DNA of 33,990 nt from an uncultured Actinomycetes bacterium (GTDB lineage Bacteria > Actinomycetota > Acidimicrobiia > Acidimicrobiales > RAAP-2). Positions 3,143 through 32,607 of the stretch are shown one piece after another. Location: assembly GCA_903848885.1 (NCBI GenBank), contig CAINHL010000053.1, positions 1 to 33,990 of the forward strand, in the 5' to 3' direction. The translations under genes and the position numbers were made by a program. The notes below the pieces were generated by a model. That model saw only the letters and a list, made by a program, of their open reading frames with translations, was not told the DNA's origin and did no database searches. The first letter of the stretch is position 1. Each line of letters starts with the position of its first letter.

Positions 3143-3346
3143 GTGGGGCCTTGGCGGTGGTCGGTGATCTGGGGCAACATTGGCCGACAGCTGCGTCGTG
3201 AGGTTGTCGAGGCGTGGGATAGCGACGACGCCTTAACTACCGCAGCCTCGCTGCATCCCGAATGGGAGCGACCACGAATGGCTTTTTTGGTAGCGCCCTC
3301 ACTCGAGGCAGAAATTGATTCGCCGCGCAATAACCTAGAACGGTGA
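3143..3346 (+). CDS. Doubtful small ORF (67 aa)
   Basis: A GTG-initiated frame lies seven bases after the preceding stop with GAGGA just upstream, and it ends with a 4-base overlap into the next gene. That positioning is gene-like, but the product (MGPWRWSVIWGN..., then EWERPRMAFLVAP) matches nothing I know. The probable -10 element of the next gene sits inside its last codons. It may be a real coupled micro-gene or simply the leader region between two genes. Confidence 0.25.
   Translation: MGPWRWSVIWGNIGRQLRREVVEAWDSDDALTTAASLHPEWERPRMAFLVAPSLEAEIDSPRNNLER
3331..3336 (+). promoter_or_regulatory. -10 element, probable leaderless promoter of the CDF-like gene
   Basis: TAACCT is followed by six bases and the GTG at 3343, the spacing expected for transcription starting at the start codon. 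No Shine-Dalgarno sequence is visible. Confidence 0.5.
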
Positions 3347-3984
3347 ATGAGTTAGCAGTCCGCGTACGAGCTGTTCGACTCGAGCAGATCAGCATTGTGG
3401 TGGCCAGCTTGGAAGCCCTGGGCGGTCTCAGCGCCGGCATCCTAAGTGCTTCCGTAGCCGTGACCTCGTTTGGCGCGGACTCGGTCGTCGAAATTGTGAG
3501 TGCTGTCATTGTGATGCGACAAGTCGTGTCGCTCGTCCGATCACGTGATCTTTCGCCACGGAGTTTTCACCGAGCGCATCGAGGATTGGCCATCATGTTT
3601 TTTGCAATGGGTGCCTACGTACTGATCAGTGTCGTGATGGCGCTGACTCAGCGTCATCATGCCCACGAGGGTGCTCTTGGAGTGGGCGTCGCCATGTTGT
3701 CACTCGTGGTGATGCCACTTCTGGCACTGGCCAAGCGCGCCAGCGCGAGAGATCTTGTTCGCCATGGGCACGTTGCGCTTGCTCGTCTGATGTCGGCCGA
3801 CGCCGCCGAAACGGCATTGTGTGCAGTATTGGCCGCCAGCACCTTGGTGGGGGTAGCGGCCGCGTGGATTCATTGGTGGTGGGCCGATCCAGCGGCCAGT
3901 CTTGTGGTTATTTACTTCGCCCTTCGCGAGGGGCGAGAGGCTTGGGAATGTTCGGTCGAAACAGCCGAAAGCCCCCATCACTAA
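3343..3984 (+). CDS. Cation diffusion facilitator-like integral membrane protein
   Basis: 213 residues with about six hydrophobic segments (roughly 15-42, 44-63, 80-101, 111-130, 150-172, 180-195). Two segments carry acidic residues at places recalling the metal-binding sites of CDF transporters (FGADSVVE with D46; SADAAET with D153). The last segment, WADPAASLVVIYFALREGREAWE, matches the CDF pattern DPxxxLxxxxxxxREG. The protein ends there, so the cytoplasmic C-terminal domain of classical zinc/cobalt/iron efflux CDFs is missing. The usual histidines are also not at the canonical spacing. It could be a divergent metal transporter or a CDF relative with another cargo. The DtxR-like palindrome 18 bases after the stop makes a metal link attractive but unproven. 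Confidence 0.65.
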   Translation: MNELAVRVRAVRLEQISIVVASLEALGGLSAGILSASVAVTSFGADSVVEIVSAVIVMRQVVSLVRSRDLSPRSFHRAHRGLAIMFFAMGAYVLISVVMALTQRHHAHEGALGVGVAMLSLVVMPLLALAKRASARDLVRHGHVALARLMSADAAETALCAVLAASTLVGVAAAWIHWWWADPAASLVVIYFALREGREAWECSVETAESPHH

Positions 3985-31089: not shown

Positions 31090-31139
31090 CGCTGATGTGG
31101 CTGGCCTCGTGATGACGTCGCCTTGGAAAGGTATGTGAC

Positions 31140-32336
31140 GTGCATGGGATCTGGTTAGCGCTGGTCTGTAGTTTCTCCATGCTGTATCAAACCTTCTGGG
31201 CCTTAGTATTCGGGTTTACGGCGTCGGGAATTATTCAGGCCTACGGCGCTCGGCTCAACGTGGCGCGACGTTTCGGCGATCACCGGGCTCGTACCGTGGC
31301 GAGGTCATCCCTCTGGGGAGCAGTGAGTTCGAGCTGCTCCTACGCGGCGAGTTCCATTGCCAAGAGCCTGTTCGATCAGGGCAGCGACTTCACGACCGCC
31401 ATGGTATTTATGGTGGCGAGTACCAATTTGGTGGTGGACCTCGGTGTGGTGATCTGGGCTTTGCTCGGTGGGACCTTTGCCCTCGGTGAAGTACTCGGCG
31501 GAATCGTCATGATTGTGGGACTCACCCTTCTTCTGCCTCGTACGGTGCGGCCACCACGACGAAAGCCCCTCCTCGTGAACTCTCCGTCACCTCAGATACC
31601 CTCAGCGAGTCGTGCCACCTTCGGCGACGCGGCGGGATTCGTGGTGGGTGACGTGACCATGGTTCGCTACGAACTGCTCTTCGGATTTCTGGTGGCGGGA
31701 GCCTGCGCTCAGTTTGTGCCAGCATCCCTGTGGCACCACTTCTTCTGGCTGCACCACGGGATGTGGAGCGACCTCGAAAACGTCGTTCTGGCCCCGCTGA
31801 TCGCGGCCGCGAGCTTCGTCTGCTCGGTCGGAAATATCCCCTTGGCGGCGGCGCTGTGGCGGGGAGGGCTTTCGGTGGGTGGAACCCTGGCTTTTATTTA
31901 TGCCGACCTCCTCACCATTCCGCTGATTTTGATGTACAAAAAGTATTACGGCCGCGCAGTGACGATTCGATTGGTCGCAAGCTTGTGGTTCGTCATGAGT
32001 GCGAGTGGATTAGTGGTGCAAGCCGTCTTGTCGCTCGTGCACCTCACCCCTTCACTCCGTGTGCTCGAAGCGGCCGGTAACTTTCAGCAGGTCACCTGGA
32101 CCACGGTGCTGGACCTACTCGCACTATTGATGCTGGCTATCGTCTACCTGGCCTATCGACGTCGTTCGCGTCAGCCAGGTTCCGAGGCCTTCGCCAAGGA
32201 CCCCATCTGCGGCATGCAGGTGGCGGTGGCCACCGCGTCGGTACGTCACCAACACGACGGGGTGACCTATTACTTTTGCTGCGAAGGGTGCCGAGAATCC
32301 TTCGTGAAGAAATTGGTGGGCGGAGAAAAATCTTAA
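31140..32336 (+). CDS. Permease (ArsP/PF03773-like) fused to a C-terminal YHS metal-binding domain
   Basis: 398 residues. Two halves of about four helices each carry a conserved cysteine-serine site: SSCSYA (C66) in the first, FVCSVGNIPLAA (C228) in the second. This is characteristic of the permease family that includes ArsP (organoarsenical exporters) and a copper/zinc-efflux subgroup. The linker between halves (about 134-165) is proline-rich and polar. After the last helix a YHS/TRASH domain follows: DPICGMQV (C357), then YYFCCEGCRESF (C380, C381, C384), resembling the metal-binding YHS in P-type copper ATPases. A metal-cation or metalloid exporter with its own sensing or delivery domain is inferred. 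GTG 31140 has a good ribosome site. Confidence 0.8.
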   Translation: MHGIWLALVCSFSMLYQTFWALVFGFTASGIIQAYGARLNVARRFGDHRARTVARSSLWGAVSSSCSYAASSIAKSLFDQGSDFTTAMVFMVASTNLVVDLGVVIWALLGGTFALGEVLGGIVMIVGLTLLLPRTVRPPRRKPLLVNSPSPQIPSASRATFGDAAGFVVGDVTMVRYELLFGFLVAGACAQFVPASLWHHFFWLHHGMWSDLENVVLAPLIAAASFVCSVGNIPLAAALWRGGLSVGGTLAFIYADLLTIPLILMYKKYYGRAVTIRLVASLWFVMSASGLVVQAVLSLVHLTPSLRVLEAAGNFQQVTWTTVLDLLALLMLAIVYLAYRRRSRQPGSEAFAKDPICGMQVAVATASVRHQHDGVTYYFCCEGCRESFVKKLVGGEKS

Positions 32337-32355
32337 ATTCGTGAAGGACTTCCGG

Positions 32356-32361
32356 TACAGT
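32356..32361 (+). promoter_or_regulatory. -10 element deciding the start of the small membrane protein gene
   Basis: TACAGT, six bases, then ATG 32368. This favours 32368 over the GTG at 32341. Confidence 0.5.
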
Positions 32362-32367
32362 GACCTC

Positions 32368-32607
32368 ATGACCAAAGATTCCCGGTTTCTCCACGTCTCA
32401 CGAATATTGAGATGGATTGCCTTCTTCGTCATTGCCTTGCCAGTGGTGAGTGCTGTTCTGTCCAGCGGAATCAATGGTTCGAACATGTTCGACGAAAGTA
32501 GCGGTGGCGGAGCGACTCTCTGGCTCGAAGCAATCACCTTTCCTCTGGGCGTGGCTCTTTTTGTAGCCGCCACGGTGATTTCCTTGGTTCAGCGCCGACG
32601 AAAATAA
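32368..32607 (+). CDS. Small two-helix membrane protein
   Basis: 79 residues from ATG 32368. A basic start (MTKDSRFLHVSRILRW) precedes helix 1 (IAFFVIALPVVSAVL). A glycine- and serine-rich loop then leads to helix 2 (LEAITFPLGVALFVAATVISLV) and a basic tail (QRRRK). This topology leaves both ends on the cytoplasmic side. No family is recognised. It follows the YHS permease gene but has its own leaderless promoter, so it need not be an accessory of it. An in-frame GTG at 32341 is a weaker alternative. Confidence 0.65.
   Translation: MTKDSRFLHVSRILRWIAFFVIALPVVSAVLSSGINGSNMFDESSGGGATLWLEAITFPLGVALFVAATVISLVQRRRK

Follow-up and report, generated by a model that had tools for sequence, protein, structure and literature searches.

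A fused ArsP_1 permease and YHS domain in an uncultured acidimicrobial actinobacterium, a candidate copper exporter

P-type ATPases are usually regarded as the route by which copper leaves the bacterial cytosol, and some copper P-type ATPases export the metal for the supply of cytochrome oxidase. Copper P-type ATPases that bear a YHS domain have been described (PMC4626032, excerpts), and the protein reported here likewise joins a YHS to a putative copper transporter, but it has no ATPase domain and is presumed to be a secondary carrier. A YHS-bearing permease is also already in print: AGB15007.1 of Halovivax ruber, likewise named as a permease carrying a YHS/TRASH domain, is a row of the alignment in Fig 1B of PMC4626032, and the excerpts of that article give it no function. 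Within the RicR regulon of Mycobacterium tuberculosis, Rv2963 is a putative permease with a suggested role in copper extrusion (excerpts of PMC10961391 and PMC3841717), and M. tuberculosis did not become more sensitive to copper when single RicR-regulated genes, mymT excepted, were disrupted (PMC10961391, excerpts). SO_0444 has been described as a copper/zinc efflux protein, with a stress phenotype for both metals (PMC3219624, excerpts). Our search of the open-access literature returned no text that connects ArsP_1 permeases fused to a YHS either with copper export or with CsoR operons.

Here we describe a permease of this kind encoded in a window of 33,990 nucleotides (contig CAINHL010000053.1, assembly GCA_903848885.1), which is the whole stretch of DNA that was analyzed, together with its relatives, their gene neighbourhoods and the genome to which the window belongs.

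The permease, its predicted fold and its YHS domain

The open reading frame at 31140-32336 of the window (forward strand, as are all features of the protein given below) encodes 398 amino acids from a GTG start; GGAAAGG, read from the sequence as a plausible ribosome-binding site, lies at 31125-31131, with the GTG 8 bases further on. In Pfam, the permease domain (aa 12-294, 31173-32021) matched PF03773 (ArsP_1) at 153.7 bits against a cut-off of 32.3, over profile positions 10-293 of 294. The YHS domain (aa 353-388, 32196-32303) matched PF04945 at 31.7 bits against a cut-off of 30.3, a score that is barely above the cut-off because the match spans profile positions 2-36 of 47. With both cut-offs passed in a single ORF, the fusion of an ArsP_1 permease and a C-terminal YHS domain, as described by the sequence-only reading, is confirmed as genuine, and the assignment to PF03773 was upheld against the possibility, raised at the same time, that the permease belongs to another family. 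This ORF is the sole PF03773 match and the sole YHS match of the whole assembly. Directly behind it, at 32341-32607, we observed a small membrane-type ORF whose match to SecG is sub-threshold only.

The two membrane halves of the permease are related to each other (hhalign probability 91%, E 1e-6, with the halves taken from a 98-row alignment of relatives), and C66 of the first is aligned with C228 of the second. The paired C-S sites that had been noticed earlier are present, as C66-S67 (31335-31340) in the first half and C228-S229 (31821-31826) in the second. C66 is Cys in 97 of the 98 aligned relatives and C228 in 90, the remaining 8 having Gly, while T95, N96, S229 and D256 are invariant in 98/98; as the rows are partly close kin, these counts are not independent. 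L197 and L203 were left out of this alignment, L039 and L046 were removed as copies of L127 and L157, judged by the identical lengths of their contigs, and L034 and L049 were left out of the tree described below.

An AlphaFold2 model computed from a 20-row alignment (mean pLDDT 84.1, pTM 0.83) places C66 and C228 at breaks between paired short helices, the two breaks matching each other, with S94-T95-N96 (31419-31427) ahead of the break in the following helix of the first half and D256 (31905-31907) adjoining that of the second. When the predicted model was aligned structurally to 999 chains, the first 26 were ArsB, NaS, INDY, NaDC, Pho90, TRAP and CNT carriers, at Z 14.8 to 8.1, and the next entry followed at 4.4. 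We take these carriers to be one fold class of elevator carriers, and in its predicted fold the permease may resemble ArsB and other elevator-type carriers. ArsB (10tp_A), whose substrate is arsenite, gave the best alignment (Z 14.8 over 291 residues, rmsd 4.5), but it shares only 13% identity with the window protein and has no YHS. Foldseek with the predicted model returned nothing at E 0.001 or less, and a sequence search for solved relatives returned none for the permease part. A published proposal assigns ArsP to the TOG superfamily (PMC7176098, excerpts), whereas the fold predicted here appears ArsB/DASS-like.

Positive residues are found in the middle loop and behind the last hydrophobic helix, where YRRRSR (32154-32171) suggests a cytoplasmic C-terminus by the positive-inside rule, and both segments are predicted to be cytoplasmic. 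A cytoplasmic middle loop agrees with the YHS domain that haloarchaeal relatives hold at this place.

The likely metal ligands of the YHS domain lie within 32199-32291 and comprise D354 (32199-32201), C357 (32208-32210), C380 (32277-32279) and C384 (32289-32291), a set with the spacing known for YHS domains. The same spacing is found at D178/C181/C204/C208 in the YHS of the Mycobacterium phlei adenylyl cyclase, an enzyme that is switched on by copper through this domain (PMC4626032, excerpts). Four cysteines had been put forward by the sequence-only reading, and three of them withstood comparison: across 71 fused rows, C357 is kept in 71, C380 in 70 and C384 in 70, a conservation that partly follows from selection, as the fused rows were chosen by a YHS profile. 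At the position of C381, 55 of these rows have Ser, 12 have Ala and 3 have Cys, and because Ser or Ala stands there in 67 of 71, C381 is no conserved ligand; Asp354 is the probable fourth ligand of the YHS. In the tree, however, each of the 65 rows in the bacterial YHS group carries the domain, and its degeneration in orthologues, which would have spoken against the sequence-only reading, is not seen.

A YHS that is structural or regulatory only, binding no transported metal, would have a precedent in toluene-4-hydroxylase, whose YHS binds no metal (PMC4626032, excerpts), and the modelled YHS aligns to such hydroxylases at Z 4.2. We consider this distinctly unlikely for the window protein: Cys ligands are present in nearly all fused rows, which hold one to four copies of the domain, and unfused relatives bear other metal-binding tails.

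Relatives and their gene neighbourhoods

Of the 98 aligned rows, 71 carry a YHS and 27 were counted as being without one. The fusion is also borne by soil bacteria of the genera Sinomonas, Pseudarthrobacter and Paenarthrobacter. Among these 27, four end in an HMBD domain and several others have His- or Met-rich ends, while some have no such tail. The earlier statement that such domains are absent from many relatives is true outside the main YHS group, given these 27 rows, although several of them bear other metal-binding tails and L049 is unfused by a frame break only. In this MAG contig (L049:5116-6602), the permease part and a part with two YHS domains lie in different frames, and L049 was counted as unfused because its YHS part is in another frame.

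In a 96-row tree, which was built by a quick method with no bootstrap and in which the window's branch is long, a single group contains 65 bacterial fusions, L050 and the four haloarchaeal rows are placed outside it, and the YHS label has to change three times. The haloarchaeal proteins are plasmid-encoded (L112, L113, L114 and L121) and combine a C-terminal YHS with a second YHS between the halves, found by our own profile and motif; for L112, Pfam lists only the C-terminal one. These homologues differ from the window protein both in the extra YHS and in the second membrane Cys, C228, which is replaced by Gly (L112:4483-5880, and likewise in L113, L114 and L121).

Genes around the relatives were assigned simply as the longest ORFs, which leaves over-extended starts in places (L155, L191) and may have introduced spurious neighbours. 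In 26 of the 71 fused rows a CsoR/RicR-like ORF shares the strand of the permease and lies directly upstream of it, with a 4-base overlap in 12. Across the first 73 loci, 28 of the 30 repressor ORFs are at most 120 bp away from the permease ORF or extend into its end region; the two others are that of L155, which overlaps the over-extended permease start, and that of L159, which is 2.4 kb away. All 33 repressor ORFs from 100 loci match PF02583, and all 33 also match RicR, with a best E of 2.1e-45 as compared with 1.4e-14 for FrmR and 7.2e-13 for RcnR; the one repressor shown in full scored below the RicR cut-off (90.2 vs 175). C76 is kept in 33/33 and C47 and H72 in nearly all, positions that are the Cu(I) ligands of CsoR, and the C-H-C motif is kept in 27 of the 28 repressors checked in fused rows. 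Beside one two-YHS permease, a CsoR-like ORF (L161:1872-2213) is without the first Cys and the His and is either degenerate or re-purposed.

As a CsoR/RicR-like repressor gene precedes it, the permease gene would be induced by copper in many relatives. Control by a CsoR-type copper repressor is also reported for Rv2963, which we take to be a PF03773 member; the window's genome differs from that case in having no CsoR match. The direction of transport is illegible from sequence and the window's genome has two COX1 genes, both of which would leave room for copper import. Nevertheless, copper-relieved RicR-type repressors usually control detoxification (PMC10961391, excerpts) and the YHS is predicted to face the cytoplasm, and we regard an importer as very improbable.

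Evidence from the wider neighbourhood is sparser. A P-type ATPase was found within 6.5 kb in 8/71 fused and 5/27 unfused rows, counts that stand without a background rate for random genes, and a multicopper-oxidase query matched in 0/71 fused and 3/27 unfused rows; only 37 of the 71 fused rows have more than 5 kb on both sides. On plasmids, 6 of 10 neighbourhoods contain either genes labelled as copper genes or, together with HMA, a two-component pair of the heavy-metal type. Of the other four, the locus L114 has an HMA protein and a P-type ATPase and L112 an HMA protein, and no genes of this kind were seen in the regions read of L115 and L119. Among 93 scanned neighbours, hand-chosen from the list and mostly without short ORFs and without repressors, HMA was found 4 times, E1-E2_ATPase 3 times and Cation_efflux 3 times, so the signal beyond the repressor is thin. 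The window's own 27-row subgroup (support 91) has a CsoR/RicR-like repressor in 0/27, and many of its members share conserved neighbours that are not copper genes by sight. The substrate had earlier been called unsettled; the neighbours of the relatives now point to copper.

The same neighbourhoods bear on two other substrates. An exporter of organoarsenicals, as the name ArsP implies, would be in keeping with PF03773 membership and with the roxarsone resistance conferred by the ArsP of Campylobacter jejuni (PMC7176098, excerpts, citing others). Yet an ArsR-type HTH_5 was found in only 2 of the 93 scanned neighbours and no ars-labelled gene in ten plasmid regions, which makes this the least probable of the readings weighed here. 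Export of zinc, cadmium or several soft metals, copper included, is suggested by SO_0444, a distant relative that is needed under zinc and under copper stress (PMC3219624, excerpts), and by a family member that is induced by Cd and Cu (PMC10092412, excerpts). Homology to the SO_0444 family (NF033936) is detectable, with 20 of 20 scanned relatives matching (best E 5.9e-25), but the window protein misses the equivalog cut-off (55.6 vs 300), as it does that of SaoE efflux (NF040736, 43.3 vs 325), and the upstream repressors of the relatives fit RicR best. We therefore consider such a broad exporter unlikely.

The window's genome and the proposed route of copper

The assembly is 97.27% complete and measures 1.56 Mb. 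We found no match in it to PF00122 (P-type ATPase; 14/14 controls positive), PF00403 (HMA; 13/14), PF00873 (RND; 12/14), PF07732 (Cu-oxidase_3; 8/14) or PF02583 (CsoR; 6/14). No CsoR-type repressor stands beside the permease, and the arrangement in a CsoR operon thus holds for the relatives only. Two heme-copper oxidase (COX1) genes are present, both on other contigs than the permease, and a CopD-like gene lies near one of them (34.1 bits vs a cut-off of 32.1). With two heme-copper oxidase genes the organism should need copper, and as none of the P-type ATPase, HMA, RND, Cu-oxidase_3 and CsoR models matched, the permease is the only recognised candidate for copper export, a reading limited by the incompleteness of the assembly and by a CDF-type cation efflux protein encoded in the same window. 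The latter is found at 3343-3984 and scored 31.4 bits vs a cut-off of 26.6.

For the window protein itself, the copper reading comes from homology to the relatives and from the absence of other exporter matches. We think it reasonably probable, though far from certain, that the protein sits in the cytoplasmic membrane as a Cu(I) exporter, with a cytosolic YHS that captures the metal or gates its passage. The cytoplasmic YHS would bind cytosolic copper through D354, C357, C380 and C384 and would hand Cu(I) to, or open the way to, a membrane site to which two pseudo-symmetric hairpins contribute their tips (C66-S67 and C228-S229), with T95, N96 and D256 close by. Copper would then be released outside by an elevator-type movement that draws on an ion gradient, as ArsB-like secondary carriers do, and in the window's genome, with no P-type ATPase or CsoR match, the permease could serve as the housekeeping copper exit. 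From the fusion, the conservation, the neighbours of the relatives and the absent matches to exporter models, all of which are read from sequence, we infer the substrate, the direction, the hand-over and the energy source. The suggestion of the sequence-only reading that metal is captured or sensed before export fits a YHS of the metal-binding type, placed on the cytoplasmic side by loop charges; from there the YHS could capture or sense metal ahead of export. Set against copper export are the 0/27 repressors in the protein's own subgroup, the 0/71 multicopper oxidases and the thin signal of the wider neighbourhood, as well as the zinc role of SO_0444, the unchanged copper sensitivity of M. 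tuberculosis after loss of single RicR-regulated genes other than mymT, the CDF protein of the window, the YHS score so near its cut-off and the lack of a Foldseek hit at E 0.001 or less.

Copper export could also serve chiefly to provide cytochrome oxidase with metal for its outer copper sites, and not to detoxify. In the nearest relative in the tree (L032) the permease lies 26 bp behind qcrB, and the cluster (L032:1913-10565) holds COX3, cytochrome c, Rieske, a SOUL heme protein, COX1 and COX2; the window's subgroup is without the repressor, in line with this role, and the window's genome has two COX1 genes. However, of 100 loci only 1 has respiratory genes adjoining the permease, and the oxidase genes of the window's genome are on other contigs, and we hold oxidase supply as the main purpose to be rather unlikely.

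If the Cu(I) exporter reading is true, copper would have a second route out of the cytosol, through a secondary carrier that brings its own metal-binding tail, follows CsoR/RicR-like repressors in several lineages and persists in some genomes in which no P-type ATPase was matched. A branch of a family named only 'predicted permease' would thereby gain a likely substrate, and the YHS-permease would be a tractable place for testing the function of YHS domains. A wider proposal, which we put forward tentatively and consider doubtful, is that the YHS-permease acts as the sole copper exporter in small-genome actinobacteria without a P-type ATPase, as an elevator carrier that takes on the role of CopA, protects the cytosol and feeds the oxidase, with an exchangeable tail (YHS, HMBD or His-rich) delivering Cu(I) to the paired hairpin-tip Cys.

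We also considered the permease as a stand-in for lost ATPases and rejected it. Nine of 41 congeners, drawn from a larger group of incomplete genomes, have no match to PF00122, a model that covers non-copper ATPases too. Five of the nine have a full permease (G000, G013, G016, G019 and G064), one has a partial permease (G022, aa 1-67), and none was found in G002, G018 and G061. Among the PF00122-positive congeners, 29 of 32 have the permease, the exceptions being G015, G024 and G032. The permease is therefore not enriched where ATPases are missing (5 full of 9 vs 29 of 32), and as it is near-universal in the genus, there is no replacement confined to ATPase-less genomes.

Across a sample of the phylum, 86 of 198 genomes gave some match, and a permease and a YHS occur together in only 5 of the 198, which by our reading of the listing are G000, G078, G099, G161 and G229. 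The remaining matches are unfused or distant permeases, or YHS domains on other proteins. Outside the permease family, we observed YHS domains at the C-terminus of XdhC/CoxI-type proteins in a Flammeovirgaceae MAG (L057:4345-5337) and in two Halobellus genomes (L058:5014-6183 and L059:5080-6156). A 247-aa ORF (L111:5857-6597) has three YHS matches and no other explanatory family above cut-off, and a 1110-aa ORF (L065:5878-9207) holds three YHS-like motifs within its first 200 residues.
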